A stretch of DNA of 64,000 nt from Hyphomicrobium facile (GTDB taxonomy: Bacteria; Pseudomonadota; Alphaproteobacteria; Rhizobiales; Hyphomicrobiaceae), in the NCBI RefSeq assembly GCF_900116175.1, contig NZ_FPCH01000004.1:124001-188000 (forward strand), in the 5' to 3' direction. Made by a program: the position numbers and the translations under genes. The notes below the pieces were generated by a model, which had not been told where the DNA came from, did no database searches, and saw nothing but the letters and a program-made list of their open reading frames with translations. Shown piece after piece: positions 16,680 through 44,369 of the stretch (positions within the stretch are counted from its first letter, which is position 1; each line of letters begins with the position of its first letter).

Positions 16680-16680
16680 A

Positions 16681-16908: not shown

Positions 16909-17338
16909 AGCGAAAGAATAGCCCCGCGCTGCTATCACGCGAGGTAGCATGTCGACAAGTGACCCGGAGCGGTCGAAATCGCCTTGTACGCTAAATGGTG
17001 AGCGACGCACCCGATCGACGCATAAACCACACGTCCCATCTGTCGGCGAGCGTCTGTTTTCCGGCAATGCCTGGACAGCCGTTGGGTCGCTGTATCCCAA
17101 AAGCAGACCTCGGACGATGATCGTTCCGATCAGTCGATAGTTGTGCGCGGAATGTCCGCATTGAGGTGGCGAGCTGTCATCATAGAAGCGACGGCGATAG
17201 CCGCAACTGACCCAAAGCGGACTCCGATCGTCAAAGTGCTTCCGGCGCGCGGGTACGCTATCTACGCCGGCCCAGGCAAACATGTGTCGCCAATTCAAGT
17301 GTGGAGGGCAGTCAGATCGATCCGAGTTTTCCTCTCGG
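16909..17338. other. Intergenic relic region with copies of a dispersed repeat
   Basis: No gene is supported. Two short blocks, 17081-17110 (TATCCCAAAAGCAGACC) and 17201-17225 (ACTGACCCAAAGCGGACT), look like degenerate copies of one repeat unit that recurs, partly inverted, near 29014-29075 and 42676-42702. A long minus-strand open frame crosses the region but outside the DHFR-like relic has no recognisable content. Confidence 0.4.
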
Positions 17339-18769
17339 TCACGCTGAACCGTAACCGATGACGGCTTTCACTTCCAGAAAGTCGTGGATTCCCCATTCAC
17401 CGCATTCCCGCCCGTTCCCCGATTGCTTGAACCCACCAAAAGGCGCGGACATATCCGACGATGGATAATTGATCTTCACGTTCCCCGCACGGATCCGACG
17501 GGCAACTCTGCGAGCACGCTCCAGATCCGCAGATTGGACGTTGGCGGAGAGGCCGTAGGGCGTATCGTTCGCGATCTCTATGGCCTGTTCCTCACTGTCA
17601 TAAGGCATGATGGACAGCACCGGACCGAAGATCTCCTCGCGCGCGATCGTCATGTCCGGACGCACGTTACCGAACACGGTGGGGCGCACGTAGTAGCCGC
17701 GGTTCAGGCCTTGCGGGCGTCCGGGGCCACCGGCGACGAGCGTCGCACCTTCTTGGATGCCGCTTTCGATAAGCCGCTGAATCTTTTCGAACTGAATCTT
17801 GCTCGAGACAGGGCCCAGGTCGATCCCATTGGACTTCGGATCGCCGACCTCGATGCTGTCGGCCGTCCCCTTCGCCACGGACAACGCCTCAGCGTGCAAT
17901 TCGCGCGGTACCAGCATGCGAGTCGGCGCGTTGCAGGATTGGCCGGAATTACCGAAGCAGCTTTGCACGCCTTTCTTGACCGCAAACGCAAGATCGGCAT
18001 CCGGCAGAATAATGTTGGGAGACTTTCCCCCAAGCTCCAGTGCAACCCGCTTCACTGTGTCGGCCGCCAACTTGGTCACCAGAACTCCAGCGCGGGTCGA
18101 ACCCGTGAAAGAGATCATGTCTATGCCTAAATGGGTGGACATGGCTTGCCCGACCGTCAGCCCATCTCCATTGATCATATTATAGACGCCGCCCGGTACG
18201 CCCGCTGCGTGCATCACCTCTGAAAAGAGGATTGCACTCACCGGCGCAATCTCGCTTGGCTTGAGCACCATCGTACAGCCCGCGGCGATTGCCGGACCGA
18301 CTTTGCAGGCGATCTGGTTCATCGGCCAGTTCCAAGGCGTGATTAGTCCAGCCACGCCGACGCCCTCGAACACGATGCGTGTGTTGCCGCGCTGCTCCTC
18401 AAACTCATAGCTTTCAAGCGCGGTGAGCGTCGACACGAGTTGAGCGAGGCCGGCCGCCGCCTGGCTGTCGCGCGCCATGCCGATTGGTGCTCCCATCTCG
18501 TCGGAGATTGCGCGAGCAATATCATCGAGACGGTCGCTATAAGCTTTGATGATCCGCCTCAGGAGAGCCACGCGATCGCCCTTGCTCGTCTGCGAGAACG
18601 CGGAGAACGACCTACGAGCCGCCGCGACTGCGCGGTCAACATCCGCGGCCGAGCCGAGCGAGATCTTCGTGAATGGGTCTTCAGTCGCGGGGTTTATGAC
18701 GTCCAGAGTGCGAGGCGCGACCGGATCGACCCAAACCCCGTCGATGTAGAACTTCAGATGATTGTTCAT
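17339..18769 (-). CDS. NAD(P)-dependent aldehyde dehydrogenase
   Basis: A 476-residue member of the ALDH superfamily starting MNNHLKFYIDGVWVDP. Catalytic features are present: TPWNWPMNQ, the Rossmann region FTGSTRAGVLV, the general-base glutamate in ALELGGKSPN, the nucleophile in GNSGQSCNAPTR, and EEIFGPVLSI. The closest pattern is the betaine-aldehyde/aminoaldehyde group. It lies about 205 bases downstream of the betaine-type binding protein on the same strand, so it probably oxidises the aldehyde made by amine oxidation or demethylation of the imported substrate. The exact substrate is unknown. A longer in-frame start near 18817 is less likely. Confidence 0.93.
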   Translation of the reverse strand: MNNHLKFYIDGVWVDPVAPRTLDVINPATEDPFTKISLGSAADVDRAVAAARRSFSAFSQTSKGDRVALLRRIIKAYSDRLDDIARAISDEMGAPIGMARDSQAAAGLAQLVSTLTALESYEFEEQRGNTRIVFEGVGVAGLITPWNWPMNQIACKVGPAIAAGCTMVLKPSEIAPVSAILFSEVMHAAGVPGGVYNMINGDGLTVGQAMSTHLGIDMISFTGSTRAGVLVTKLAADTVKRVALELGGKSPNIILPDADLAFAVKKGVQSCFGNSGQSCNAPTRMLVPRELHAEALSVAKGTADSIEVGDPKSNGIDLGPVSSKIQFEKIQRLIESGIQEGATLVAGGPGRPQGLNRGYYVRPTVFGNVRPDMTIAREEIFGPVLSIMPYDSEEQAIEIANDTPYGLSANVQSADLERARRVARRIRAGNVKINYPSSDMSAPFGGFKQSGNGRECGEWGIHDFLEVKAVIGYGSA

Positions 18770-29721: not shown

Positions 29722-31149
29722 ATGCGTATTTTGGCCGTGGTGCTAGCCGCGCTTAGTGTTTGCGCGTGCTCAATGTTGAATTCTTCCCTGCTTCCACAAG
29801 GACCCGACAGCCTCGGCGCGGACGGCCGCCCGGCCTGCGAGAGCACGACCGGTTCCTACAATTTGTCGAAGACCTATCTTCGCGTCAAAGTCGACCTGAA
29901 GGGTACAACCGCCCAGGACCACGACAAGAGACTTGAACTTGCCGGCGTCGACATACTGCACCGCCCGGATCGCGACAAAGGCTATTGCCTCGATTACGCG
30001 GCAAGCCCGACGGCGCACGACATGGTCAAGATCTTCAAAGTCAGAGAAGGCCGCGTACTTACAAAACCCACAACCGCAAACGCGACACCAGAGCCCGTCC
30101 AAGATGCCGAACTCGCGGCGAGCGGCAGCGGGCTTCTGCACGCCATCTCGACAGATGCCATCGACGAATCGGCATACATCCTGAAAACCATTATCCGAAC
30201 GATCTTCATCGGCATCTCCGGCAATCCGAATTTCGCCGAGACCTCTGCGGTCCAAGGGCGGTCGGTCAATGGCGCAGCCGTCAACGACCGCGTTGTCGAT
30301 GTCGAGTACGATCCTTTCGATCTCGCACAGAGTGCACTCGTAAACAGCACGCTCAGCCAGCTTGGCTTCTGCATCATCCTCCAGGGCGTGACGGTGCCGC
30401 GCGACCACGGCACCATCGCCACATACTGCGATGATCCGCGCCGGGCCGTCGAAAAAAACATTCGCATGGTCAACGCTCTGCGCCTCGCGGAAGACCCGCC
30501 CGAGACGCTATCGTCCCGCGGCGTGTTCTACCGGCCACGCATCCCCTTCACCGTTCTGCTGTTCCTCAACGCGAACAGAGGCTCGGCGCAGGCGAAGGCA
30601 AAATGGGAATTGCGTGGCAGCGAGGTCGTCGAACTCGAGAACGTATCGCCGATCCTCGCCATTGACGTCGAGAGGGCCTTCTTCGCCGAGCGCAAGACGA
30701 CGGTCATGTTCGACCAGGGCGCACTGACCAACGTCTGCGTGTTCAAGACGAGTGAACTTGTACAATTCGTCGACGTGCCGCTCGAAATCGCCAAAAGCAT
30801 GGTCGCGCTTCCCGCCAACATCATACAGGTCCAGATTGATCAAACGGCCGGCCAGAGAAATCTCTTGGCGGCCCAGAACCAGCTGATGCAGGCCGAAGTT
30901 CGTAGGTTGCAGGCCGAACAGGCCCTGACGACGACGGCGCTCGGCCAGGCGCTCAGCAAAGATGAATCAAGCAAAGTCGCAGCTGACGCCGCAAAGAGCC
31001 AAGCCAACCAACTAATCGGGGATCTGCTGGAGGACCAACTCGCTGCCCAGGAGAAGGACGCCAACAGCGGCATTCACGAGCTGAATGGCGACTTCGAGAC
31101 CACCTGCCCGCAAGCAAATGTCAAGGAAATTACGGCGGGAGCTCTGTGA
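29722..31149 (+). CDS. Putative lipoprotein, paralogue of the next gene; family unknown
   Basis: A 475-residue exported protein. The N-terminus MRILAVVLAALSVCAC ends in a plausible lipobox (VCAC) followed by SMLNSSLLPQG. The body shares block by block similarity with the next protein: SYNLSKTYLRVKVDL, DKGYCLDYAASPT, SGNPNFAE, EYDPFDLAQSALVN, FYRPRIPF, VERAFFAERKTTVMFDQGAL and LPANIIQVQID. The C-terminal ~90 residues are a predicted coiled coil rich in Ala, Gln and Leu. No enzyme motif was seen. Together with the following lipoprotein, protease and caspase-like genes it forms a co-directional set. Confidence 0.75.
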   Translation: MRILAVVLAALSVCACSMLNSSLLPQGPDSLGADGRPACESTTGSYNLSKTYLRVKVDLKGTTAQDHDKRLELAGVDILHRPDRDKGYCLDYAASPTAHDMVKIFKVREGRVLTKPTTANATPEPVQDAELAASGSGLLHAISTDAIDESAYILKTIIRTIFIGISGNPNFAETSAVQGRSVNGAAVNDRVVDVEYDPFDLAQSALVNSTLSQLGFCIILQGVTVPRDHGTIATYCDDPRRAVEKNIRMVNALRLAEDPPETLSSRGVFYRPRIPFTVLLFLNANRGSAQAKAKWELRGSEVVELENVSPILAIDVERAFFAERKTTVMFDQGALTNVCVFKTSELVQFVDVPLEIAKSMVALPANIIQVQIDQTAGQRNLLAAQNQLMQAEVRRLQAEQALTTTALGQALSKDESSKVAADAAKSQANQLIGDLLEDQLAAQEKDANSGIHELNGDFETTCPQANVKEITAGAL

Positions 31150-31186
31150 TCTCTAGGAATGCGCGAGTAAATCAGAGAGTGCTCAA

Positions 31187-32524
31187 ATGCATAAGATTGC
31201 GGTCCTGCTCGTCGTTCTGATCCTCACGGGCTGCGCCATGGCGAATTCCACGCTGCTGCCCAAGCCGAGCGGATTGGGAGGCTGCCATAGCGATGCCGGC
31301 GCTTATTCGCTCTCAAAGACCTACGTTGCGGTCGAAATCGCCAAGAGCGATTCCCCCGATCTCGGCGAGGAATTCCGGTTGAACAGCGTCCGCCTGGTAC
31401 GCCACCCCGACAAAGGCAAGACCTATTGCCTCGACTACCTCGGTTCGCCGACATCCAACGAGACGTTCACGGTGCAGAAGGATGCAAGCGGGCTGCTCAT
31501 GAGAGTCTCGGCCAACTCCAAGGATCAATCGGCGGCAATCGCTAAAAAGGTCGCCGATACCATTTTCACTGTCGTATCGGGCAACCCGAATTTCGATCCC
31601 AATGAGCAGGCGGCCGGTCGTAGCAGCCTCGACAACGCGCCGGCAACGCTGACGAGCCCTTACCGCGCCGAGTTCGACCCTTTCAACTCCGGCCAAGCGG
31701 CTGTCGTCAACGATTCCATGCGCAAATTCGGTTTCTGCATGATGATCGAAAACCAGGGCCTGGCGCCGGGACAGCGCGACGCCGACTCTTATTGCGAGCA
31801 CCCCCTCGGAGGCGTCTCGCTCGAGCGCGCATTGGCCGATGGCTATGATGCGGACTACCAAGCTTCCCCTATTCCCGAAATGCGAGGAATTTTGTACCGG
31901 CCGCGGGTGCCGTACGTGATGTACCTGTTCGTCAAAAGGGATCTAAAGGCCAAGGGCGGATGGCTCCTCAAGGCCAGCGAAGCCGTGCATCTCGAAAACA
32001 AATCTCCGGTCCTAGGCGTGGGCATCGACCGAGCCTTTTTCACCGACCGCAAAACGACGCTGACGTTCGATCAAGGCGCGCTCGTCGATATCGATATCAA
32101 CAAGAAGAGCGAGCTTGCCGGGTTCGTCGAAATTCCGCTCTACATTGCCCAAGGCATCGCCGCGCTCCCGACAAACATCATTCAGGTTAAGATCAACGAA
32201 ACGAACAACAACACCGCCCTGATCAATGCCCAGCAGCAGCTGATCGATTCCCAAAAATCATATCAATCCACGCTCTCCCAGCTTGCTAAGCTCCAAGCCA
32301 ACCCGGCAACGACAACCCAGCCCGATGCATCCAACGTGCCGGCGACCTCGGGTCGTTCGACGTCGCTATCGCCCGAGGAAAAGAACCAATGCATTGCTCG
32401 CAACGCGTCCCAGTGGGGCCAGGTGGAGGCCCAGCGCTATTGCAATTGCGCCTTTGACCAATGCTCCGCTGCCGGTTTGAGCGGTCAGGCGTGCGAGAAT
32501 TATTGCTCGGGGGGATCGGGCTAG
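31187..32524 (+). CDS. Putative lipoprotein, paralogue of the previous gene; family unknown
   Basis: A 445-residue lipoprotein with a clear signal and lipobox (MHKIAVLLVVLILTGC). Shared blocks with the previous gene include YSLSKTYVAVEIAK, DKGKTYCLDYLGSPTS, SGNPNFDP, EFDPFNSGQAAVVN, LYRPRVPYVMYLF, IDRAFFTDRKTTLTFDQGAL and LPTNIIQVKIN. The C-terminus differs: a Gln/Ser helix, a Thr/Pro-rich linker, then a cysteine-rich tail (RYCNCAFDQCS, CENYC). The paralogues probably arose by tandem duplication. They could form a hetero-complex at the membrane; function is unknown. Confidence 0.78.
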   Translation: MHKIAVLLVVLILTGCAMANSTLLPKPSGLGGCHSDAGAYSLSKTYVAVEIAKSDSPDLGEEFRLNSVRLVRHPDKGKTYCLDYLGSPTSNETFTVQKDASGLLMRVSANSKDQSAAIAKKVADTIFTVVSGNPNFDPNEQAAGRSSLDNAPATLTSPYRAEFDPFNSGQAAVVNDSMRKFGFCMMIENQGLAPGQRDADSYCEHPLGGVSLERALADGYDADYQASPIPEMRGILYRPRVPYVMYLFVKRDLKAKGGWLLKASEAVHLENKSPVLGVGIDRAFFTDRKTTLTFDQGALVDIDINKKSELAGFVEIPLYIAQGIAALPTNIIQVKINETNNNTALINAQQQLIDSQKSYQSTLSQLAKLQANPATTTQPDASNVPATSGRSTSLSPEEKNQCIARNASQWGQVEAQRYCNCAFDQCSAAGLSGQACENYCSGGSG

Positions 32525-32557
32525 CCCTAAAGATTGCGAAGGGAGGACGCAACAGAG

Positions 32558-33730
32558 ATGGGCTGCCCGCGCATTTATTCGGAACGCAGGTTTTCGCTAC
32601 TGCGGTGGCTGGCGCCGCTCCTTGCTGCTCTTGCCATCGGCACAGCGGGGTCGGCCGCTCAGACGGTCGCGGACGTACATGGTATAACGCATTGCGACAA
32701 GACGGAAATCGTGTGCCGGCGGGGTCTGGTTGACCGGCTGGTTGCGTTTGCGGCAACGCGGGCCGGCGGCGACGAGAACATGCGTGCATCGTGCCTGAGG
32801 GAAGGTCTCGACCAGCTTCAGTCGAATCTCAACGAATTCACTTCGCTCGATCTGTCGCAGATTCGTTGCCTTCCTCAGCCGCAGGATGCGAGCTTGCAGT
32901 ATCGGAACGGCCTCCAAGAGCTTCTCGAAGAGGCCAAAAGCCAAATCAGCGTCAGCTCCGAAGCACGGATAACCTTCGGCGTGCCGACCACGGAATGCGA
33001 CTTCCCCCATACGGTCGTCATAACCCGCAATCTCGGCGAATTGTGCACGGGCACCCTCGTCGACAGCAAGACGGTCCTGACCGCGGCCCACTGCGTCTGT
33101 GATCTCCGGATCGAGGCGAATCCGACGGCCATACGCGTCAAGGCCACGCACGACGCCCGCGACGGCAAGCCGGGAGTCGGACTGAGGGAGATAAAGCCCA
33201 GCGCTACATTCAGCGGCTGGAACTGTCAAAACCGGTTCTCGCCCCCAGATTGGGGACGCGATCTCGCTTTGCTGTTCCTAGAACAGGATATGCCGCCGCC
33301 TTCGGTGAACGCTTGCGCCCGACCCTCCCCCGCCAAGATCGCCTCGACCGGGATGTACCTCAACCCGGTCGTGAGCGTTGTGACAATCGTCGGCTTCGGC
33401 CGCGACGAGCGGGCCCAACTTGGGCGCAAGAAGTGGGCCAATCTTCCTATCGTATCGAAGATTTGCGGGGACGATATTTCTCACGCCAAGTTCAAATGCA
33501 TGCCCGGCCGGGAGGCCGTACTGGCAGACCCACAGCTTCTCCGGGATACCTGCGGCGGCGACAGCGGCGGCCCGGTCTTTTTGAAGTCGGACGCGAATTT
33601 TTTCATAACTGCCGTCACGTCGCGCGAAGTGAGAGGAGGCGCTTGCGGTCCCGGCGGAATTTATACCTTGATCACGCCTGCGGTCGTGAAGTGGATGAAG
33701 AGGCTCGGCGTCAATGCAAGCTCCGAATAA
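32558..33730 (+). CDS. Secreted trypsin-like serine protease (S1 family)
   Basis: About 390 residues from the ATG after GGGAGG. A signal peptide covers RRFSLLRWLAPLLAALAIGT and the following residues, with cleavage near GSAAQ. A 120-residue cysteine-containing prodomain follows, then a chymotrypsin-fold domain with an intact triad: His in LTAAHCVC (about 178), Asp in GRDLALLF (about 235), Ser in CGGDSGGPVF (about 336). It should act in the periplasm or outside the cell. Its 3' end overlaps the caspase-like gene by 17 bases, so the two proteases are translationally linked. Confidence 0.9.
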   Translation: MGCPRIYSERRFSLLRWLAPLLAALAIGTAGSAAQTVADVHGITHCDKTEIVCRRGLVDRLVAFAATRAGGDENMRASCLREGLDQLQSNLNEFTSLDLSQIRCLPQPQDASLQYRNGLQELLEEAKSQISVSSEARITFGVPTTECDFPHTVVITRNLGELCTGTLVDSKTVLTAAHCVCDLRIEANPTAIRVKATHDARDGKPGVGLREIKPSATFSGWNCQNRFSPPDWGRDLALLFLEQDMPPPSVNACARPSPAKIASTGMYLNPVVSVVTIVGFGRDERAQLGRKKWANLPIVSKICGDDISHAKFKCMPGREAVLADPQLLRDTCGGDSGGPVFLKSDANFFITAVTSREVRGGACGPGGIYTLITPAVVKWMKRLGVNASSE

Positions 33731-35633
33731 TCAAAATGCTCTTCTTCCGGTGTTCGCACTGCTAGGGCTTGCGCTTTTCACCCAAATTGCGCGTGCCGAC
33801 TGTCCCGAGCTACCGCCCACGGACAATGTCTGCATCAACCTCGAAACGACGGCGGACTGCGGCGCAAACTGCTGCACATTCAACAAGGACAACCGGCGTA
33901 CGGCGCTCATCATCGGCAACAACGACTATTCCGGCAAGCTCGGCAATCTGTGCAACGCCGGTTTTGATGCGCGCGCCCTGGCGCTCAAGCTTAAGGGCGA
34001 AGACTTCAATGTTTGCTGCCTATTGAACGCCAAGCACCGCAACATCGAAGGCGCCCGGATCGCCGCTACGAAATACATGCGGGACGTCGAGGCGATCAAA
34101 GATGCCGACGGCAATCCGCGATATTTGCCGCGCGATACGCGCTTTCTCACTTATTTCGCCGGCCACGGAAGCTTCAGCACTGGGCAAGACGACAACGGCG
34201 TTCCGAACCAAACCTTGATTTTCGGCACCGGGAAATATGAAACCGACGAGGATCTGCTGGATAATGCAACGTCCATAACAACCTTGCGCGACGACTGGGG
34301 AAGCTTCCAATCCGTCCACCCGATTATCGTCGTCGACGCGTGCCGTACCCCTATTACTTTTCCGGCGGACCTCACTTCATTTGAGCCGCGCGAGTCAGTG
34401 ACAAGCCGAACATTCAGTATGGCCGCTCGGTCGTTCAAAATTCCGCTGACGCTCAAAGCCCGAGGCGGCGGCTATGTGGTCCTCTACTCGACAAAAGCTG
34501 GAACGATCGCCTCGGATGTCTTTTCGGGAGGGGCTGGTAGTGTCCAAAGCGGCCGGTTCATGAGGTATTTCTCCGACGAGATAGACGCCTGGGGAAGAAA
34601 GCTCGACCGTATCTTTGATGTGGTCAATGTCGCCGTCAAAAAAGACTCCGAGGCAGCAAGGCCTCCGGATGGCCAAGCACCCACCGAAGATGATAATTCG
34701 CCGCTGTTTAACGCGTGGCCTTGGCGTATTTCCTCGGATGCGTGCTCTGCGGCGATGAACGAGCTGGGTAACGCGGTCGAGTCCGACGGCGCTGGAGGGA
34801 GCCGCTGCCCCGATAAGCCCTTTTCGGAATGTCTGGCGTTGGGAGAACCTTCGCCGGTGCAATGCGCCACTTATAACATCCAGCTTGCCAGCGTGAAATC
34901 TGACGCGGCATGTGCGGCAAAAGTCGACCATGCTTTCAGCGCGTTTTTTGGAGCAAACGGCGATCGCTGCCGGAACGTGTCCGCCGAACCGGAATTTGTC
35001 GCCACAAACTTCACGCGCGATATGACGGTAGCCGATGCCCGGCTGGACCAAGCACTTACGGCTCCAACTACGCGAGGAAGCATTCTGACAGAGGGTGCTC
35101 CGGAAATTCCGCAAATCGAAAAATCTGTCGAAGTTAGGACAGGGACAGAGCTCAGGTCGCCGGACCGCCAAAGGTCGGCGGTCGAATACGCCCAAAAGGG
35201 TACGAAACTCCAAATCGATTGTCTTAGCCCTGGCTCAAGCTGCTCGCGCGATTGGATTGGCGTGCGCTCTTCCAGTGGACAGCTCTCGTATGTGCGTCGC
35301 TCCGCGGTCAGGGCTGTATCGTCGGCAAAGGCTACCGTCGATCTCTTATTCGACAAGGCTACCGGACTTCCGACGATATCGTCGCTTGAGGCGCTGGAAA
35401 AAGAGGCTGGTCAATTTATTGACAAGCCGGAGACGACTGTTCGCATTACTGCCGAAGTTTCAAATGGTGCAGATCCGATGGCGATGGCCGAGGCCGAACG
35501 CCAGGCCAGCCAGCTCGAAGCGCTCATTCAGGCGGGTGGCTTCAAAGGTCAAAAGTTTGTTAGAGACTATGTGGTTCTCGCCAAGGACATCGAGCCAAGC
35601 CAGATTCATCTTGAATTTGTAGCGGGCCAATGA
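33714..35633 (+). CDS. Exported caspase-like (peptidase C14, metacaspase-type) protease
   Basis: A 639-residue protein. Residues 8-28 (NALLPVFALLGLALFTQIAR) form a signal peptide, so the protease is exported. The caspase domain (about 60-300) starts RRTALIIGNNDYSGKLGNL and has the catalytic His in TYFAGHGSF (His151) and Cys in IIVVDACR (Cys210). A middle cysteine-rich region follows, then an SH3-like segment (about 475-530) and a C-terminal helical part (MAEAERQASQLEALIQAGGF) resembling OmpA-like or Sel-type ends. Caspase-fold enzymes often act in regulated proteolysis; pairing with a secreted trypsin-like protease suggests an activation cascade, which is inference. Confidence 0.88.
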   Translation: MQAPNNQNALLPVFALLGLALFTQIARADCPELPPTDNVCINLETTADCGANCCTFNKDNRRTALIIGNNDYSGKLGNLCNAGFDARALALKLKGEDFNVCCLLNAKHRNIEGARIAATKYMRDVEAIKDADGNPRYLPRDTRFLTYFAGHGSFSTGQDDNGVPNQTLIFGTGKYETDEDLLDNATSITTLRDDWGSFQSVHPIIVVDACRTPITFPADLTSFEPRESVTSRTFSMAARSFKIPLTLKARGGGYVVLYSTKAGTIASDVFSGGAGSVQSGRFMRYFSDEIDAWGRKLDRIFDVVNVAVKKDSEAARPPDGQAPTEDDNSPLFNAWPWRISSDACSAAMNELGNAVESDGAGGSRCPDKPFSECLALGEPSPVQCATYNIQLASVKSDAACAAKVDHAFSAFFGANGDRCRNVSAEPEFVATNFTRDMTVADARLDQALTAPTTRGSILTEGAPEIPQIEKSVEVRTGTELRSPDRQRSAVEYAQKGTKLQIDCLSPGSSCSRDWIGVRSSSGQLSYVRRSAVRAVSSAKATVDLLFDKATGLPTISSLEALEKEAGQFIDKPETTVRITAEVSNGADPMAMAEAERQASQLEALIQAGGFKGQKFVRDYVVLAKDIEPSQIHLEFVAGQ

Positions 35634-35826: not shown

Positions 35827-35877
35827 TCCGCCTAAACCCAAGCTCTTCGTTGAGTAAATTCGTCATTACCAAATGGC

Positions 35878-35980
35878 GTCCACGAATTCGTCCACAAATG
35901 CGCGCTCGATGGTAAGCGATTTGCCCCGATGCCAATAGACGTCAGTCTGGGAATTTCACTGACTTTATTAAGTAGATCGA
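35878..35980 (+). repeat. Remnant of an integrase upstream region (copy of 44138-44245)
   Basis: This stretch aligns along about 100 bases with the region just upstream of the integrase gene. Shared pieces include CGTCCAC-AATTCGTCCACAAATG versus the same pattern at 44149, CAATAGACGTCAG in both, and CTGA(C/T)TTTATTA in both. I estimate about three quarters identity by eye. No integrase frame follows on its left, so the gene that it once served has been deleted. Confidence 0.7.
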
Positions 35981-35989
35981 CTTGGCAGA

Positions 35990-36004
35990 TTGGTGGAGAG
36001 GGAG
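35990..36004 (+). repeat. Att-core copy B, likely left end of the present island
   Basis: TTGGTGGAGAGGGAG is identical to the tRNA-Tyr copy at 44284 over the first 13 bases. With that copy it would bound an 8.3-kb element. Confidence 0.7.
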
Positions 36005-36997
36005 GGAGAGCATGAAGATCCTATTTGATTGATTGCTCAGAGATATCTGGCACCTACTTGCTTCAATGTCCCACTTTATGTCCCAGTCCGTGGCCGAGAT
36101 GGGCGGCAATCAAAAGTAGCTACGAGGGTCAAAGCGATGACGCAGACGCGATCGCGCCTTCAGTTGGTTGCGGGGGCCCGCTACAGCCGATGCAGTCAGC
36201 CTCGGATCCTTCCTTTCAGCTTGTCGGCTTAGTTATGAAAAGAAGGGTGAATGCCATTCGCTTCTTCACAAGATCGCGAGGTTTGAAGCGCCTTTCGGCT
36301 TTGGCGGCCAACCGCGGGTGGTGGATTTAGTGCCTTCGGACGCCCCATGTGAAAACTTGCGAGGATTGATTTGATGGAAAACAATACTGCGCAACTATAC
36401 GGAATTTTCGAAGAAGAATTCGAACTCGATAGGGGAGTGGCGCGGCTTCGTAAGGGGAGCTTGCTACCTCTCGCAAACACCGTCGAAATGTTTGCGGCTG
36501 CACTCACATCCGCCCCATCCGCTGGTCGGAAGCAGAAAGGTTCGCAGTCGTAGTCGCGGCTGAAGGCTACGGTATCGATCCTGTGCTTGAACTGCTACGG
36601 AATGCGGCAATGCGCGCGCTTACTCCGTTGCTGGCCAATCTCCCCAGACGATGACTGAGATGTCGGTCGCTCTTCGGGAACCCACCTCCACGCCGTCGCA
36701 AGCCTTGGCAGCAGCCCGCATCATCCAAATTTTTGGCGCCGAATTCAGCGTTCATTGAAAATACGATTCTTGGGCATGCCGTTCGCGGAGGATCCACGAA
36801 GGCGGAGACAACTACGGCGACCATCCCCGTTTAGGACCTGATCATGGACGCACTGGCCGGTGGTCATAACGCGCGGCGCAAATAATCGATTCCTCCGTCG
36901 TGCGCGTGCACCAGCCCCGATCACAGCACGTCGAGGGGGGGCCGCTATGAAAGGCGGCCCTTACTTACTATGGGCCGCCGCGCACGAGGAAATCAGA
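36005..36997. other. Left part of the island without a confident gene
   Basis: About 1 kb containing only short frames. One at 36374-36553 (+) encodes 59 residues (MENNTAQLYGIFEEEFELDR at the start) without a clear ribosome site; it may be a decayed gene end. No family could be recognised on either strand. The helicase gene stop is at the right edge. Confidence 0.4.
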
Positions 36998-39769
36998 CTA
37001 CCAGCCCTTCGACATCGCTTGATAGATATCCCTCCGGGCCAGTACCGTCTCACAGGTTTCCCAGGCTTTGCCAGTGAGATAAACGTCCCCCCCGTACAGC
37101 ACGTCGAAAGCGTTCTGCGCCGCCGCCTTCCTGTTAGTGTAATCGCGCAAATTCTCCGCGAGCGTGTGGACATCTTCGATCCATTCGTCCTCAATCGTAT
37201 CGGGGAGAGAGCCAAAGATATCGTAGACGTTTTCCATTCTGCCCGACAACGCATTGTAGATATCCTCATCCCGCGTGCCCTGATAGACGAGATTGAGCAT
37301 CGATACGCGTTCGCGGAGCTGCCCGAAACGCTTGATCCACCCAAGTCGCTGCTCCAGGCGAGAGGGGTTCCACGGAAGGTCCATGTTGATGAGCGTACCA
37401 AGTGTTTGGAGGTTCAACCCTTCGCAGGCCGCATCTGTCGCCACAACTAGGCGCAACCTGCGCTGTTTCACTTGTTCCTTGATCGTCTCCCGCTCAGCAG
37501 AAGCAAAATCGCCCGCGAGCCAGATCCCGGATTTGCCCAAACCGGCGTATACCGCCACGGGCTCGGCCGGGAGTTCCGATGAAAGCCCACGGGCAACCCA
37601 ATCTGAAGTATCGAAATACTGGCTAAAGACGATGCATCCGCGGTCCAGCCACCCGTGTTCCAGTAGAAATCGCTTTGCGACTTCAAGCTTGGGGTCGGAT
37701 TTCATTGGCTCCAGCAGTTCGATGATCCGTTTAAGAAACGACGCCTCATCACGCTCGATGGTGGGGGGCGCATCTTCCCGCAGTAAATCATCAGCGTCGC
37801 TTTCGGCCTCAATCTGTCGTTTCGCGAGCAGCGCCTTCGCGGTTGAAAGACCGCTTGCAAAGCTCGAACAGATGCGTTGTTGCATCAGCTTTTCGGTGAT
37901 ACCGGCTGAACGGTCCCTTTTGCGCAAGGCTGCGCCAAAGGCCGTCGCGCACTCGTAGGCTTCGTCGAAGGCAGACGATGTCACGAGCGCGCGACCGGCA
38001 AATCCGGGCTGTGAGCACTGCGCCGAGGGGAAAACGTCTACCGCAATCCGCTTCAAGAGTCCCATTTCCTCCAGAGTACGCCGTTTGCGCAATACGACGT
38101 GACGGACGATCGGATTGTGTCGTTGAAAGAAGGCGAGGCCAGAAGCTTTCGAAGCAAGCGCGTCGCGAAGGTCGGCGCGGACGTCCTCGCTCAGGTCGAC
38201 GTGCGATCGGTCTGCTCGAAACTCACGTGGGGACACGCTAAGCTCACTCCGGCAATGGTCGAAAAGCGTGTCCTCGCGACCCGGCGGAAGCGGATTCCTG
38301 ATGAGTGCCCAACCTCCCGCTTCATCAGTAATCTGACGCGCGCCGGTGATCAGATCTCTCGCTACTTCGGGTCGCGCCCAATCCGTTACCGTTGGGCCGC
38401 CAAGCACATGAGAAGCACCAGAGTTGAGAACGCCCATGAGGTCCCACAGCTCGGCTACATGAGTCTGGATCGGCGTCCCCGTGCCGAGCAGGACGTGCCG
38501 CGCGCGACGCGCGATCGCCATCATGAAGGATAGAAGGTTGTTCGGTTCACCATCCGGATCGTTGAGCCCCCGAGTGCGCCGCGCTTTGTGCGCCTCGTCT
38601 AGGATCACCATGCCGAACTTCATCTTCAGAAGTTCGGCGCATTCCCGGTCGTGAACGTGGACGCCTTGTTGGAAGACGAGGCCTGTTGAGACAATGCCGA
38701 TCCAATAGGGGCAGCGGACGACGTCCTTTGGTCCGTTTGCCTTGATGACGTTATCGCTCGGATCGAGCCATGCTTTCCGATTGGAAAGCCAGACTGCAGA
38801 CGGAATGCCGAGCTTGTCTTTCAGCTCGACCTGCCACTGCCGTGTCAGGGTCGAAGGGCAGAGGATAAGAACGGGGCCGTCTCCCAAGAGTGCGGAAACG
38901 AGCGCGGACGTCGCAAGCGACAGCGTTTTGCCGACTCCCACTTCGTCCGCGAGCAAAAGCCGCGCGCCATTTTCGCCGTACGTCTCGCGATGTTGCAGGA
39001 ACATTGAGACGAAGCTGCGCTGCCAGGGCTGCAATCCATCGTCTCGACTAAATATCGGGGCCTCGACCAGCGCAGCGGGCGCCACCTCTTCCGGATCGAG
39101 TGCGCCGATCTCCACTTCTCTGCGAAGCGCGGTGCGGCCAATCTCCTCGATCACCGCTTCAGGTAACGGCCTGCCGCGTGCCCACAGCCACTCGAACTCA
39201 GAGTGCACCCAAGCGACGCCTTCCGGTGACGCGTCTTCCCAGACAATCTCATAATGGCGGGACCAGCCCTCCCGCGTTTCGTTCAGCGAGCCAATGAAGG
39301 CGATCTTCGACCCGTCGTGCGCTTCAATCACGCCGGCCTTGCCATGAAGGAAGGGCGCATCGTCGCCGGCGACGACGCGAACGGCGACTTTTTTGCTCTT
39401 GAGAAGATTATACAGGCGGCGGTAGCGCTCGCGCTTCATAAGCCGTTCGAGAGTATCGACGCCATCACTCAGCTGTTCTTTCAAGCCGACTTCGAGCGCC
39501 TTGGCGGTCTGCACGTCGCGCGGATCGAGATCCCCGTTACAGACGATGCGGATGTCGTCGACGCCTTCGAGGTCTTCGCCAACCAGCTCGAAAATGGAGG
39601 AGCGAAAATAACCCGCGATGCGCCGATAGCTCTTTGCTCCCTTAAGACGCTCCGAGAGCAGAGCGTGATCGAGCCGTCCGGTGCGCGAGGAAAAGCGGCG
39701 GATTTTGGCGTCAGTCCACTCCGTCACACACGTCCCCTTCGCACTTTCAGCCCAGACGTTGATTTTCAA
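36998..39769 (-). CDS. PLD-domain SNF2-family helicase, anti-phage type
   Basis: A 923-residue, apparently intact protein. Residues about 30-200 form a phospholipase-D-like domain with H-x-K in FLHGKAGVIEAHDGSKIAFI followed by GSLNE; the usual HKD aspartate position is Glu. Residues about 245-800 form an SNF2-like helicase: LLADEVGVGKTLS (Walker A), VILDEAHKARRTRG (DEAH box), LGTGTPIQ, and VATDAACEGLNLQ and EQRLGWIKRFGQ (motifs V and VI). This architecture is known beside DUF1156 methyltransferases in anti-phage loci. Its start overlaps the methyltransferase end by about 23 bases. The ATPase and other partners usual in such loci are missing here. Confidence 0.88.
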   Translation of the reverse strand: MKINVWAESAKGTCVTEWTDAKIRRFSSRTGRLDHALLSERLKGAKSYRRIAGYFRSSIFELVGEDLEGVDDIRIVCNGDLDPRDVQTAKALEVGLKEQLSDGVDTLERLMKRERYRRLYNLLKSKKVAVRVVAGDDAPFLHGKAGVIEAHDGSKIAFIGSLNETREGWSRHYEIVWEDASPEGVAWVHSEFEWLWARGRPLPEAVIEEIGRTALRREVEIGALDPEEVAPAALVEAPIFSRDDGLQPWQRSFVSMFLQHRETYGENGARLLLADEVGVGKTLSLATSALVSALLGDGPVLILCPSTLTRQWQVELKDKLGIPSAVWLSNRKAWLDPSDNVIKANGPKDVVRCPYWIGIVSTGLVFQQGVHVHDRECAELLKMKFGMVILDEAHKARRTRGLNDPDGEPNNLLSFMMAIARRARHVLLGTGTPIQTHVAELWDLMGVLNSGASHVLGGPTVTDWARPEVARDLITGARQITDEAGGWALIRNPLPPGREDTLFDHCRSELSVSPREFRADRSHVDLSEDVRADLRDALASKASGLAFFQRHNPIVRHVVLRKRRTLEEMGLLKRIAVDVFPSAQCSQPGFAGRALVTSSAFDEAYECATAFGAALRKRDRSAGITEKLMQQRICSSFASGLSTAKALLAKRQIEAESDADDLLREDAPPTIERDEASFLKRIIELLEPMKSDPKLEVAKRFLLEHGWLDRGCIVFSQYFDTSDWVARGLSSELPAEPVAVYAGLGKSGIWLAGDFASAERETIKEQVKQRRLRLVVATDAACEGLNLQTLGTLINMDLPWNPSRLEQRLGWIKRFGQLRERVSMLNLVYQGTRDEDIYNALSGRMENVYDIFGSLPDTIEDEWIEDVHTLAENLRDYTNRKAAAQNAFDVLYGGDVYLTGKAWETCETVLARRDIYQAMSKGW

Positions 39770-41901
39770 TCAGATCAGCGAGCACGAGTGCAGCCGCGCC
39801 ATCGACATCGGTGCGCTTCTCGCCGATAAAAAGAGCGATGGCGATGATGTGTTCGCGTCGTTCATAATAGCGGGGCGTGGTACGCAGCTCTTCGAGGATG
39901 GTTCTGGCATTCGGATCTTCCGCCTGGAGCTTTAGGATTGCCCATAGAATGCGCCGCGTGGGAGTTTCGCCAAAGCCCTCGCCGAACTGCGCGCGGCCGA
40001 ACCCGGCAGCGGACTTCAGGCGCGCGGCGTTGGGCTGCACGCTGGCCATCAGCGGCTGCCAGTCAGCGCGAAAGCGCTTTGGCGAAGTTCTGGTAGTTGT
40101 CGAGCTTCTTGAGGCCCGCGGCATCGAGATCGAGCATCTTCAGATAGAAGCGCTCTTCGGCCGTCAGTTGGCCCCACACCTCTCGGGTTAGGCCGGAGGG
40201 CACGAGGTGCGAGTTAGCGGTTTCGGTGGCAAAGTCGATGATCTCCTTCACCGTATCAGGACGGCCCCGCACCCGCGGGCGAGAGGCGTACGCCGCCATA
40301 TCCTCGCCGTCGATGCGGGCGTAGCGGGTGAGCACGCGCAGCGCGGCAGCATATCCCGCCATCTGCAGGTCCGCGTCCTCGAATAGGTTTTCGCTGCGGC
40401 CGTGGGCAACGGCGCGATCATTGAGGCCGGTTAGGCTTTCAATTTGCCGTGCGACCTCAAAGCCGATCTCTTGGGTGATCTCGTCGCGGTAGCCGGCCTC
40501 GCCGTCTTGGCGCTTACGCAGGACAAGTATCACCGTGCCCTGCACGTAGCCGCCTTTCTTCAGCTCGGACGTCGTTTCGGTCGCGACGTACCAGGCCGCG
40601 GTTACCTGTAGCCCTGCGCCCCACATGATGGCGGCCATGTCCGCCCAGACTTCGGCGTCCTGATGCGTGAACATCACGATCTGAAGGCCGCTGTCCGGCA
40701 TGTGATTAGCGAGATTGCGGTAAGCCGCGATCATCTCGGCCTTGAAATCCTCGCCCGAGCCCTTGATGGCGAGCGCACGCCTGCTGTCCCACACCCAATC
40801 CTTGAACGGTTCCGGTGGGTTCTTGCGGAGCCAAGCAATGAAAAATTCGGTTATCTCCTCATAACGAACGGCATCTGCGTAGGGAGGATCCGTGATCCAC
40901 ACGTCAGATGTCAGACCTGAAGTAGCGGCGGAAACGGCCGACACTACAGAAACCCCCATGACGCCGTTCTCTGCTCCAATTCCAGTGGGGTCGATGTCGT
41001 CGAGCAGAGCGCCAACCGATCTCCCTGCGTAATTGACGAAGGTGTTTAACGCTTGATTGTAGAAGACGTGGTTTGGGATGTCTCTGGCGCCCGCTAGCTG
41101 CTGGCCAGTTTGCTTGTCGACACGCGGCATCGAAGTGAGCCACTGACACATTTTGCTCGCGTGGTTAATCGCTCTCGGCCAGAGGGCATACAGCCCTGCG
41201 TTCGATATTTGCGACTTCATCGTCGCTAGCACGAGCAGGTCGCGCGGCGTGAATAGGTGGTGCCAGTATGTCCAGCCGCGTTCGAAAATGGGCTGACGGG
41301 TGTTGAGTCCGGGCTCTATAGGCATGTCGGGCACGAGGCCGCGTGCCTGCCAATCGGCGAGGCTCGCGCGTACAATGTCTTCGAGCTTTCTCTCTCTCGC
41401 TTCGTCGTCGGGAGAGACCTCAGCGAAATAAGTGTCTTGGCGCGAGGCGCCAAGCGTCTCTTTCGTGATCCATTGGATCGCATAGAGGCGCTCTTGATAG
41501 ATATCGTCCGGTCTCGGGATAAAGTCCTGCTTTTCCCAGCGACGGAGATTGTTCACCGTCGCGCCTTCGGGTCCGCGCCGGTCTCCTCGCAATGTCCGGA
41601 TTGGCGTGCGGTGTGTGGTGCCGTCGAGCGTGACCACGAGGTCCCCGTTGTCGACCGTTCCAGTCTCCGCGGCCAGCATCTCTGCATCAGACACATCAGA
41701 TCGCACGCGGATGTGGAACCGCTTCACTATGCCATTGGGCTCGAGGACTGCAATCGTCCGTCGCGAACGGCTGATGATCCTGGTCGGCAACATCGGTACC
41801 ATGTAGCCAGTCTCGGGACGGATCATCCCGGGTTTGAAGACGCGCCCGCTTGGAGGTTCATCCGAAATTCCGGCGTCGTGTTGAACAACTCGGCGAGCCA
41901 C
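39747..41901 (-). pseudogene. DUF1156-type DNA adenine methyltransferase, truncated and frameshifted
   Basis: The frame at 40063-41901 (612 codons) contains the methyltransferase motif WITDPPYADAV (DPPY at about 338-341). It ends LDNYQNFAKALSR. The family C-terminus continues in another frame as FRADWQPLMASVQPNAARLK down to IENQRLG at 39747, so one extra base lies in AAAGCGCTTT at 40071-40080. Full-length relatives have about 900-1000 residues and an N-terminal HLWWARRP motif, absent here; the coding start at 41901 follows a junction with unrelated sequence. The gene is therefore probably non-functional. It should have modified host DNA alongside the helicase. Confidence 0.78.
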
Positions 41902-41965
41902 AAAGCAGCATCGGCCATCAACGGCGCGGTTACATGAGGCCGGCTACTTCCCGCGCTCACACTAA

Positions 41966-42481
41966 CTGGCGTTGGCGCTTTTTGCGTGGAACATGTTCTC
42001 GCGCAATGACACCACGCAGATCGCGACCGCCCCTCAAGAAACACAATCAAGTAACGGTACCGGTACCGGCACATCAGGCGTCGATATGACGCCCGCGCCA
42101 TCGGCGGCGTTCAACCGGCAACCTTCCAGGCGCTCGAGAATCTGCATGGCATCAAGGTCGGTGACGTCGATCTGGGTACGCAAACGACGAGCACCGTAAA
42201 CGGGCTTCGTGGATCACTGGAGACCATATCCGACGAGACTTCGGCCCGAGCGGCTCTGGTACCGCTAAATAATTCTGAAGAGGAATTCGACAATGTCAGC
42301 GGGCTGGCAAATCAGCTCTCGCCGGATAGTAGAAAAGCACTCGCAAGCGCTATCATGAGCGTACGACCCATGCTGGATCAACTTTTAGATAAGGCGCTTC
42401 AGATCCCCGGCGCGAGCGCACTCATCAAAACCCACGGTCGACGGTATCCGCGCTAAACTCGATACCATGGACACGGCCTGA
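41966..42481 (+). pseudogene. Frameshifted fragment of a membrane-anchored hypothetical protein
   Basis: Three successive frames give one coherent protein. ALFAWNMFSRNDTTQIATAP and a Thr/Ser-rich linker end near 42105. Then QPATFQALENLHGIKVGDVD continues through SGLANQLSPDSRKALASAIM and LDKALQIPGASALIK. A last shift near 42430 gives PTVDGIRAKLDTMDTA and a stop. A stop codon at 41963 cuts the 5' end. The pattern (membrane anchor, low-complexity linker, helical tail with IPG and IKP-type motifs) resembles a common small alphaproteobacterial protein of unknown function. Two shifts and truncation show decay. Confidence 0.6.
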
Positions 42482-42827
42482 TGCGATTGCCACTCATTCA
42501 TTGAAGCCGAGGAGGCGTATTAGCCCGCTCGTTAACAGAAATGGCGACGGAGAGAAAGTTCGCGGCGCACAAGCCGGCGACCGCGCAAGGCTTTGGGCGA
42601 TCCGATGCACTGATTCCCACCATGGAGAGCGCAAGGCAAGGCGCGAACTAAGTGCCTTGGGGCGGCCGCAGCGCATTTCCGCTTCTGGCCCACAACTGAC
42701 ATCCACGGCGGCGTAGTTGATCCCGTCCGATTCAGCTGAAGAGCTAACATCTCGTGATCGAAAATTTTGATAGTCAGCTGCAAATATAAAACTGACCGCA
42801 AAAAACTTCTTCGGATTTTCTTGCATT
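42482..42827. other. Non-coding part of the island with one dispersed-repeat copy
   Basis: No gene is supported. A copy of the dispersed repeat lies at 42676-42702 (TTTCCGCTTCTGGCCCAC). The right end runs into the tRNA-Lys fragment. Confidence 0.4.
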
Positions 42828-42880
42828 TGGTGGGTGATTCACGGGCTCGAACCGTGGCCCCGCTGATTAAGAGTCAGCTG
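42828..42880 (-). tRNA. 3' fragment of a tRNA-Lys (CTT), partial, probable att scar
   Basis: On the minus strand the sequence reads the end of the D arm, the anticodon stem-loop GCTGA-CTCTTAA-TCAGC (anticodon CTT), a T arm CACGG-TTCGAGC-CCGTG, then AATCACCC and ACCA. The 5' acceptor strand and D arm are absent, and one extra A lies between T stem and acceptor. It is therefore not a functional tRNA but the portion that site-specific integrases commonly duplicate. The integrase stop codon lies inside it. Confidence 0.72.
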
Positions 42881-44136
42881 CCCCGTGGTTCCTTCCGAAG
42901 ATAAAAATTGGGCGCCGCTCCGAAGTTCTGATCCGCCTTGCGGATAGTTTTTGCGCAGTATCTGTCCCACTCCCCCATTAACACTCGGCGCTTTTCAGAC
43001 AGATCACCCCGTCGATATGCGGCTTCAACGCCGTCGCTGATCGCATGCGCTAACGCCATTTCGACGACAAAGTTTGGGAAGTTTGTCGTTTCCGCTGCCC
43101 AATCTCGGAACGTCGATCGAAAGCCATGAACAGTAAGATCGCTTCGCTTCATCCGCCTCAGCAACATCAACATGCTCATGTTGCTGAGGTGCCGGCCAGG
43201 CTTTTCTCCAGGGAAGACGAACTCATTCTGCTTGACTGTTTCCAGCTCTTTGACGATCTCGACGGAACGTGGCGATAGCGGCACCCGATGCTCCTTGCCG
43301 CTCTTCATCCGCGCGCCAGGCACCGTCCAGAGCTTCTTACCGAGGTCAAACTCGGTCCAGCGCGCGCCCAGCGCTTCCGTGGTCCGAGCAGCTGTGAGAA
43401 TGGTGAACTCTAGCGCGCGAGATGTCAGTCCCGCTGTCGCTCGCAGCTCCGACACGAACGCCGGCAGATCGTCGAACGGCATCGCCGCGTGATGCTCGAC
43501 CTTGGCAACCTTCGATGGCTTCGGCAGCAGGTTTGCTAGGTGACCGCGCCACCGGGCTGGATTTTCCCCTGAGAAAGCGCCACGCGCCTTTGCCCAATCG
43601 ATCACAACCTCGATCCGTCCGCGTACCCGAGACGCTGTCTCGGGCATCGAATGCCAAATGGGTTGTATGGCATCAAGCACAATCACCGTCGTGACGGACG
43701 AGACCGCAATGCCACCGAACTTCGGATAGAGATAGCGTCGGAGGGTGCTGTGCCACTGCTCGCAGTGCTTCGCGTTCTTCCAGCTCGGCTCGTGCGCGGC
43801 CATGTAGGCTTCGGCGCATTCCTTAAATGTCATCGAGCGAGCCTTGTCAGCAGCAACTTCCTTTTCCGCCAGCCGCTTCGCCTCAATCGGATCCTGACCG
43901 AGGTCAAGCTGGCGGCGCGCATCGCTGGCCAACGAGCGCGCGGTTGCAAGACTAACCGAAGCCGCCGAACCCAGCCCAAGGTACCTCGGCTTGCGTTCGC
44001 GCATGTACCGGAAGACCCAGGATCTAGAGCCACACTTGTCTACCTTGAGGTAGAGGCCGGCGCCGTCTGGATGCATGCCGACGGCCTTCGTGTTTGCAGC
44101 CTTAATCGCAGTCAGTCGGTGGGTGGCTTTGGGCAT
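42874..44136 (-). CDS. Tyrosine recombinase/integrase of the P4-like (DUF4102) type
   Basis: A 420-residue protein. The N-terminal DUF4102 arm-binding domain (residues 5-90, GLYLKVDKCGSRSWVFRYMR) is followed by a core-binding domain and the catalytic domain. Catalytic residues are visible: Arg in ILTAARTTEALGARW, His-x-x-Arg in VHGFRSTFRDWA, and the nucleophile Tyr in GVEAAYRRGDLSEKR. Such enzymes integrate islands into tRNA 3' ends. Its 5' end faces tRNA-Tyr across a 150-bp attachment region, and its last codons lie in the tRNA-Lys fragment. It appears intact. Confidence 0.92.
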   Translation of the reverse strand: MPKATHRLTAIKAANTKAVGMHPDGAGLYLKVDKCGSRSWVFRYMRERKPRYLGLGSAASVSLATARSLASDARRQLDLGQDPIEAKRLAEKEVAADKARSMTFKECAEAYMAAHEPSWKNAKHCEQWHSTLRRYLYPKFGGIAVSSVTTVIVLDAIQPIWHSMPETASRVRGRIEVVIDWAKARGAFSGENPARWRGHLANLLPKPSKVAKVEHHAAMPFDDLPAFVSELRATAGLTSRALEFTILTAARTTEALGARWTEFDLGKKLWTVPGARMKSGKEHRVPLSPRSVEIVKELETVKQNEFVFPGEKPGRHLSNMSMLMLLRRMKRSDLTVHGFRSTFRDWAAETTNFPNFVVEMALAHAISDGVEAAYRRGDLSEKRRVLMGEWDRYCAKTIRKADQNFGAAPNFYLRKEPRGS

Positions 44137-44137
44137 A

Positions 44138-44283
44138 GCTCGTCCACAAACTCGTCCACAAATGGATGGCCCGATGCTAGGCGATTTGGCCCGGCGTCAA
44201 TAGACGTCAGCTCAGGATTTTAACTGATTTTATTAGATTATTTTCTCGTCGACCGACGTCAATCGACACTGCCATACGGGGTC
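44138..44283. promoter_or_regulatory. Integrase upstream/attachment region
   Basis: The 150 bases between the integrase ATG and tRNA-Tyr hold the integrase promoter and probable arm sites. Short direct repeats occur (CTCGTCCACAAA twice at 44142-44162; GACGTCA at 44206 and 44255). A diverged copy of this region lies at 35878-35980. Confidence 0.55.
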
Positions 44284-44298
44284 TTGGTGGAGAGGGCT
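44284..44298 (+). repeat. Att-core copy C within tRNA-Tyr 3' end
   Basis: TTGGTGGAGAGGGCT, where bases 44285-44298 are the CCA end and acceptor of tRNA-Tyr. Copies at 35990 and 35812 mark the left ends of integrated DNA. Confidence 0.7.
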
Positions 44299-44369
44299 GG
44301 ATTCGAACCAGCGTAGGCGAAGCCAACGGATTTACAGTCCGTCCCCTTTAGCCACTCGGGCACCTCTCC
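44285..44369 (-). tRNA. tRNA-Tyr (GTA)
   Basis: An 85-nt class II tRNA including an encoded CCA. The acceptor pairs GGAGAGG with CCTCTCC, the anticodon loop gives GTA within GACTGTAAATC, there is a long variable arm, and the T arm is CTGGTTCGAATCCAG. Its 3' end is the integration target of the island to its left. Confidence 0.96.

Follow-up and report, generated by a model that had tools for sequence, protein, structure and literature searches.

In bacterial conflict systems, trypsins and caspases occur together with nucleases, ATPases or adaptor domains, and, as far as the available portions of the describing papers go, these systems are assigned to the cell interior or the membrane (PMC7159879; PMC8195603; PMC12799240). 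Two described groups come closest to the locus considered here, a set of four genes for two lipoproteins (LP1 and LP2), an S1 trypsin-like protease (S1) and a C14 caspase-fold protease (C14), found in a stretch of 64,000 nucleotides from Hyphomicrobium facile (contig NZ_FPCH01000004.1, positions 124,001 to 188,000; the whole stretch is called the window below). The first group is System 3, which comprises multi-protease operons (trypsin, sometimes S8), most of them from Alphaproteobacteria, for which the available text proposes a proteolytic cascade; its core is a NucA endonuclease, joined in some operons by EAD1 or STAND parts (Kaur et al., 2020; PMC7159879). The second consists of the caspase-nuclease (canu) systems and the protease-activated nucleases of Hachiman and AVAST, in which, according to the accessible part of the report, a proenzyme is switched on by its partner, a MALT1-like caspase or a trypsin (PMC12799240).

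The set in the window would resemble the canu, Hachiman and AVAST systems in combining a caspase or a trypsin with a proenzyme partner, and they are described, in the same part of that report, as modularly recruited and located in defence islands; however, their partner is an MBL-fold nuclease (PMC12799240). Neither the window operon nor its scanned neighbours showed an MBL-fold nuclease beside the caspase. The window set, unlike System 3, has export signals and paired lipoproteins, and a NucA-type endonuclease was not found by Pfam among the scanned genes of the window and of its tandem relatives, a scan that covered part of the flanking genes. In PADLOC 2.0 the lipoproteins had no match, S1 (Avs1b, LmuA) and C14 having weak domain matches only. 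The likeness of C14 to the EACC1-associated caspases (NF047832) is weak and limited to the caspase domain (E 6e-4; score 19.3 vs a cut-off of 140). None of the words 'periplasm', 'lipoprotein' and 'signal peptide' appears in the available main texts of PMC12799240 and PMC8195603, and that of PMC7159879 uses 'lipoprotein' once and 'periplasm' twice. In the literature searched, from which subscription papers and preprints are largely absent, there was no paper on this exported set.

The core of the set is kept together across several bacterial families while its second protease is replaced by other kinds, which suggests a proteolytic system of the cell envelope that has not been described before. 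We would give an even chance to its being a mobile extracytoplasmic protease module, in which a trypsin zymogen is held by lipoproteins and triggered by a partner protease.

Conserved core of the locus

The four genes are co-directional on the + strand, with 37 bases between LP1 and LP2, 33 between LP2 and S1 and an overlap of 17 between S1 and C14, at the positions given by the first-pass annotation of this DNA (Table 1). LP1 and LP2 are 36% identical across LP2 residues 98-388 (E 7e-55), and the blocks RKTTVMFDQGAL and RKTTLTFDQGAL, by which they had been called paralogous, do align between them. The catalytic residues that had been read as intact (S1 H178/D235/S336 and C14 H151/C210) lie within PF00089 and PF00656 domains. 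With six trypsin-family loci and a single C14 in the whole host genome (4.43 Mb), the cluster is not explained by chance; an LP2 search of this genome matched only LP2 itself and LP1. The start of S1 is an ATG preceded by GGAGG at 32542-32546, while the list of open reading frames extends the gene to a TTG at 32534. A scan for promoters and terminators gave sites no more numerous than in shuffled sequence.

We read 32 distinct lipoprotein loci (numbered with L below). Before counting, L060 (the contig of L031), G1101 (taken as identical to L057 from matching coordinates), L062 (an unrelated lipoprotein) and three further Agrobacterium plasmid records, left unopened (H4-H6), were excluded. Lipoprotein genes are in tandem in 11/32 loci (window, L031, L034, L057, L058, L061, L081, L082, L083, L105 and L106), and an S1 gene follows the second of them in all ten that are readable; L034, in which no X (see below) was seen, ends at a contig edge. 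Altogether a protease neighbours the lipoprotein in 20/32 loci. If six trypsin-family loci are spread over some 4,200 genes (an estimate), about 0.1 trypsin neighbours would be expected, a value that other kinds of protease would raise somewhat. By the test set beforehand, i.e., whether homologues are rarely neighbouring, LP-LP-S1 behaves as a joint unit. The first-pass claim of a joint conserved system thus stood for the lipoproteins and S1, which also co-evolve, and not for the caspase, found in 5/10 of the tandem loci.

Most relatives carry one more gene for an exported protein upstream of the set, here termed X, as a fifth member. Its product, cysteine-rich and with a signal-peptide-like start, is encoded just ahead of the lipoproteins in 8/10 loci, the window being without it and L106 beginning at a contig edge. 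The N-terminal part of X is variable; its C-terminal part has conserved Cys residues and the motif CGxxPAP. Because the Cys spacing looks by eye like the motif of SUEL-type (rhamnose/galactose-binding) lectins, such a domain was considered; Pfam up to E 5 (five X proteins) and a PDB profile search up to E 10 were unsupportive, which leaves it as a lead only, and a model of the C-terminal domain from 2 sequences reached pLDDT 36.

Co-inheritance of LP-A and LP-B (the two lipoprotein types), S1 and X is seen from their distances and trees. Distance-matrix correlations are 0.93-0.96 among LP-A, LP-B and S1 (10 loci) and 0.92-0.94 with X (8 loci). After collapsing Rhizobium to one (6 loci) they are 0.81 for A-B, 0.77 for B-X, 0.66 for A-X, 0.60 for A-S1, 0.59 for S1-X and 0.40 for B-S1 (p 0.08). 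In the eight loci bearing X the clades of LP-A and LP-B mirror each other, i.e., (L081,(L031,L105)) and ((L082,L083),(three Rhizobium)), differing only in the order inside the Rhizobium trio, with one matching node of the B clade weak (88/63). In the maximum-likelihood tree of 43 lipoproteins LP1 and LP2 of the window fall on the LP-A side, together with both lipoproteins of L106, their nearest kin. The window pair is thus, as judged from this tree, a derived A-type pair, and LP2 is no orthologue of the second lipoprotein found in most other tandem loci.

LP1 and LP2 each begin with a hydrophobic segment that ends at Cys16, with LTGC in LP2 and a less typical VCAC in LP1 (export signals and lipoboxes were judged by eye throughout). 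Cys16 is invariant in 11 relatives, as expected of bacterial lipoproteins, the lipobox of LP1 remaining atypical. A residue other than Asp at position +2 of a lipoprotein directs it to the outer membrane, and by this rule we infer that LP1 and LP2 are anchored there. Within the limits used, Pfam, PADLOC, NCBIfam and PHROGs gave no family match for LP1 or LP2. PHROGs had none for the lipoprotein of L049 either, and marginal matches for the lipoproteins and X of L061. An LP2 structure model from 6 sequences was poor (pLDDT 57, pTM 0.42; best Foldseek match in PDB E 0.21) and was not used.

Predicted zymogen activation of the S1 protease

An Asp at chymotrypsin position 189 confers specificity for Arg and Lys. 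This Asp is kept in 13/13 core S1 genes with an assignable activation site, L036, L084 and L088 being left out as unassignable. The residue before the activation cut (P1) is Arg in 5/5 core S1 genes beside a C14 gene (R137|I138 in the window), and it is Lys in the four genes of the second S1 protease, S1b. Without C14 it is Leu in L031 and L081, Thr in L082, Glu in L059 and L085, Arg in L032, Lys in L105 and Gln in L106, the last two read by eye. Basic P1 residues are thus found in 5/5 genes beside C14 vs 2/8 without it (p 0.016, or 0.06 with Rhizobium counted once). Since the specificity Asp is kept where P1 is Thr, Glu, Gln or Leu, self-activation would hardly be possible there and an outside activator is favoured. 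Activation of S1 by the caspase at R137|I138 is suggestive only.

Exchange of the partner protease

The protease that follows S1 differs between the ten tandem loci, being C14 in five (window, L057, L058, L061, L083), S8 in three (L031, L081, L105) and neither in co-directional position in two. Three of the five C14-bearing loci are close Rhizobium relatives. The order X-LP-LP-S1-C14-S1b is found in R. leguminosarum pR132503, R. johnstonii pRlX4 and Rhizobium sp. R634, and the same six genes, followed by a gene for a CHAT-domain protein, are present in L083. This protein (L083 1813-5070; E 8e-51) lies directly after the six-gene set, has a signal-peptide-like start and is a second caspase-like protease. 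The loci with S8 have X-LP-LP-S1-S8; L031 and L081 carry in addition a gene Y, for a protein of ~600 aa with no confident Pfam family, co-directional in L081 (13517-15397) and divergent in L031 (6656-8377). In L082 X-LP-LP-S1 faces a convergent group of astacin-like, Trypsin_2 and peptidoglycan-binding proteins. L106 has LP-LP-S1 with a M50/HlyD-like protein two open reading frames on.

The profile of the window caspase and two Rhizobium caspases has as best PDB chains MALT1 and the metacaspase MCA2, and an Asp stands two residues before the catalytic Cys in the window C14 and in four other lipoprotein-linked C14 proteases, as predicted, from sequence, for the para-/metacaspase type. In para- and metacaspases an acidic residue at this position gives specificity for Arg and Lys, and the window caspase is predicted to cut after these residues. 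The other C14 caspases of the order share its GHG and DACR motifs, and many have a signal-peptide-like start; DACR is followed by [ND]NP in 14/16 of those with a readable Cys motif, while the five lipoprotein-linked ones have DACRT or DACRA. The C-terminal stretch of the window C14 matches SH3_4 at E 0.025, under its cut-off; an OmpA-like C-terminus, proposed by eye, obtained no support from Pfam.

Loci with a single lipoprotein and related protease pairs

A single lipoprotein is encoded in 21/32 loci, and 10/21 have a protease neighbour. This is S1 in L032, L036, L059, L085 and L088, a trypsin in L084, Trypsin_2 in L053 and L055 and a metzincin, below gathering, in L107; in L049 a convergent trypsin is followed by a WD40-caspase and a trypsin. 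No protease was found in the other 11. In L033, L035, L050, L054, L056, L086 and L108 the Pfam scan covered one neighbouring gene per locus, and L037, L051, L052 and L087 were scanned only with the S1, C14, S8, X and Y profiles, L087 having an S8-like match two genes upstream.

Some arrangements stand apart from these counts. In two genomes uvrB lies beside a single lipoprotein gene (L035 10431-13331; L084 1024-4209, with a trypsin too), which is perhaps a shared insertion site. On the Pseudomonas plasmid pJBCL41 (L062 6565-8807) a related S1 gene and a lipoprotein gene overlap, the latter without detectable similarity to LP1 or LP2, and lipoprotein-trypsin pairing may be wider than the LP1/LP2 family. 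The R. leguminosarum OyaliB plasmid (L065 7824-10673) encodes a caspase and then an S1 protease, and a Microvirga plasmid (L094 8968-12075) an S8 subtilase related to that of L081 and then a Trypsin_2 protein; in neither stretch was a lipoprotein of the LP1/LP2 family found.

Distribution and mobility

The distribution is rare, patchy and, in Rhizobium, plasmid-borne. Genomes with a lipoprotein match amount to 8/297 in the order (LP2 query), 7/385 in the class (profile A1), 4/103 in the family of the window, 8/394 in the family of Rhizobium sp. R634, 3/148 in the genus of R634 and 1/4 in the family of G079. These counts overlap, the host genome being included in the order, class and own-family searches, G677 in those of the R634 family and genus, and G079 in those of the order and of its own family. 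The other genomes of the host genus listed in the order and own-family searches had no lipoprotein match. Among 72,556 plasmid records 6 match, all typed conjugative and from Rhizobium and Agrobacterium. One scan of genome contigs gave two confirmed loci, one being the contig of L031, and one scan of viral contigs gave no LP2 relative. An integrase gene follows the operon in L061. L105 comes from the family of the window but clusters with L081, which belongs to the R634 family, and with L031, from yet another family; locus groups thus cut across families, which suggests that the module was spread by horizontal transfer.

Features of the window and anti-phage-type neighbours

Table 1. Positions of the four-gene set and adjoining features, counted from the first letter of the window
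Feature	Position	Strand	Description
LP1	29722..31149	+	lipoprotein, unnamed family, 475 aa; Cys16 lipid site, Ser at +2; RKTT block at residue 324
LP2	31187..32524	+	LP1 paralogue, lipoprotein, 445 aa; LTGC lipobox, Ala at +2; RKTT block at residue 288
S1 trypsin-like protease	32558..33730	+	390 aa; signal-peptide-like start, ~100-residue pro-region, catalytic domain; PF00089 E 2.4e-22
Predicted S1 zymogen activation site R137|I138	32966..32971	+	sequence
S1 catalytic His178	33089..33091	+	sequence
S1 catalytic Asp235	33260..33262	+	sequence
S1 Asp330, chymotrypsin Asp189 equivalent	33545..33547	+	sequence
S1 catalytic Ser336	33563..33565	+	sequence
C14 caspase-fold protease	33714..35633	+	639 aa; signal-peptide-like start; weak SH3-like C-terminal stretch; PF00656 E 3.9e-14
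C14 catalytic His151	34164..34166	+	sequence
C14 Asp208-Ala-Cys210 (catalytic Cys with Asp at -2)	34335..34343	+	sequence
Integration-site remnant behind the caspase gene	35877..36007	.	copies of the integrase-to-tRNA region and of the tRNA-Tyr 3' end

A tRNA-Tyr (44285-44369) lies right of the C14 gene, with a tyrosine integrase at 42874-44136. A copy of the tRNA 3' end with 2 mismatches lies at 35990-36007 (0.05 matches expected in the window), and the stretch from integrase to tRNA is repeated at 35877-35970 (79-92%). From these copies the operon is placed directly beside, or inside an older layer of, a tRNA-Tyr integration site. The region 35877-44369, a tRNA-Tyr integration hot spot, looks like two accreted islands, the older of them adjoining the caspase gene. 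It includes a full-length PLD-type anti-phage helicase (36998-39769, above the NCBIfam cut-off) and an anti-phage-associated DUF1156 protein (40063-41901) that lacks ~277 N-terminal positions of the model and scores under its cut-off.

Neighbours of this type were also seen in some relatives. On pRlX4 the operon adjoins broken HmaB/HmaC genes (L058 2784-5860), HmaB extending over two overlapping frames of which the second piece also matches part of HmaC; these remnants are a decayed Hma defence system. A DNA methyltransferase gene lies near the module in L083. In L082, a relative without caspase, X-LP-LP-S1 is flanked by a MBL-like protein (16553-18172) and a Trypsin_2 protein (4291-5790), each a weak PADLOC match to LmuA, and the LmuA/MBL-like match is ~3.3 kb beyond X.

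Proposed mechanism and its alternatives

The core of the proposed module would consist of two paralogous lipoproteins, an exported Arg/Lys-specific trypsin zymogen and, in most loci though not in the window, the cysteine-rich exported X, with the partner protease in an interchangeable slot that is taken in the window by an exported para-/metacaspase-like caspase. The lipoprotein pair would act as a membrane-anchored receptor or scaffold that binds and holds the S1 zymogen. An envelope signal would activate the caspase, which would then free S1 at R137|I138, and active S1 would cut proteins of the envelope, either its own cell's or an intruder's. The lipoproteins may also sense the proteases or be cleaved by them, as the first-pass annotation suggested. 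In eukaryotic complement and Toll cascades extracellular trypsin zymogens are likewise cut after Arg or Lys by an upstream protease; the proposed cascade resembles them by analogy only, no homology of the sensor parts being shown.

Several observations weigh against this proposal. A rule drawn from 7 loci, Arg at P1 with C14 and Leu with S8, failed on the first new S8 case, since L105 has Lys. In L106 no second protease adjoins S1, whose P1 is Gln, and S1b of L083 has lost the specificity-site Asp. Contact between lipoproteins and proteases is without structural support (LP2 model pLDDT 57, empty fold search), and in 11/21 single-lipoprotein loci no protease neighbour was found, within the scans given above. 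The window C14 is remote from the other lipoprotein-linked caspases (L061 E 8e-6, L057 0.014, L058 0.075, L083 0.35), its best relative in the order (E 4e-12) being closer than any of them. The caspase tree, from which the fragmentary L020 and L021 were left out and in which L064 was missed by the profile, sets it apart as well, a single lipoprotein-linked clade having p-AU 0.246 with long branches; C14 may have been recruited more than once or have diverged far. The S8 partners have no visible signal peptide, so an all-surface cascade, as the first-pass annotation envisaged from the export signals of the window genes, does not fit every variant; these partners may act in the cytoplasm and may never meet the exported S1. 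Finally, PADLOC found no anti-phage family in the scanned flanking genes of L031 (1), L057 (1) and L061 (3), and the frequency of anti-phage neighbours lacks a baseline from random accessory loci.

For what purpose such a module would be kept one may only guess, and mobility together with the anti-phage-type neighbours of some loci prompts the guess of a role in defence or competition. A more specific version, rather unlikely and put forward tentatively, is an immune or conflict cascade of the envelope: the paired lipoproteins (in most loci with X, perhaps a lectin-like recognition protein) would hold the trypsin zymogen, and caspase, subtilase or CHAT initiators would fire it on contact with a phage, a conjugating cell or a competitor, as a plasmid-spread counterpart of complement.

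It is rather doubtful that the lipoproteins are instead anchors and inhibitors, which restrain S1 or confer immunity to it, the protease being a secreted weapon against neighbours and the caspase an added payload rather than a trigger. The lipoproteins do neighbour different proteases (S1, Trypsin_2 in L053 and L055, possibly the metzincin of L107, which is below gathering), extra proteases pile up in L083 and L088, and the overlapping pair on pJBCL41 would suit this explanation. However, immunity proteins often diversify, unlike these lipoproteins, which evolve in step with S1, and single lipoproteins occur where a protease neighbour was not found.

Ordinary envelope or nutritional proteolysis, i.e., processing of surface proteins or scavenging of peptides, borne on plasmids of soil bacteria, appears unlikely. 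It is favoured by the occurrence, in several further genomes of the order, of caspases whose starts resemble signal peptides, by the six trypsin-family loci of the host and by the absence of any anti-phage family match for the lipoproteins. Regulated proteolysis, however, agrees better with the fixed order and co-evolution of the genes, with their rarity (8/297 genomes) and with a protease predicted to be of para-/metacaspase type.

An extracytoplasmic relative of the NucA-trypsin systems, with the nuclease replaced or undetected, is very improbable, for although System 3 combines trypsins, sometimes with S8, mostly in Alphaproteobacteria (available text of PMC7159879), and the window S1 has its weak PADLOC matches to Avs1b and LmuA and matches the trypsin part of a Sinorhizobium mexicanum record annotated as DNA/RNA non-specific endonuclease (30%, E 3e-11) in a locus that also has a caspase, the defining part is missing, no NucA-type nuclease having been found among the scanned genes of the tandem loci.

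If the lipoprotein-held protease module is real, proteolytic signalling of the trypsin and caspase type would move to the envelope, with a mobile exported core in which an unnamed family of two paralogous lipoproteins is the constant part and the partner protease is exchangeable. Lipoproteins that are annotated only as hypothetical in plasmid records would thereby gain partners.

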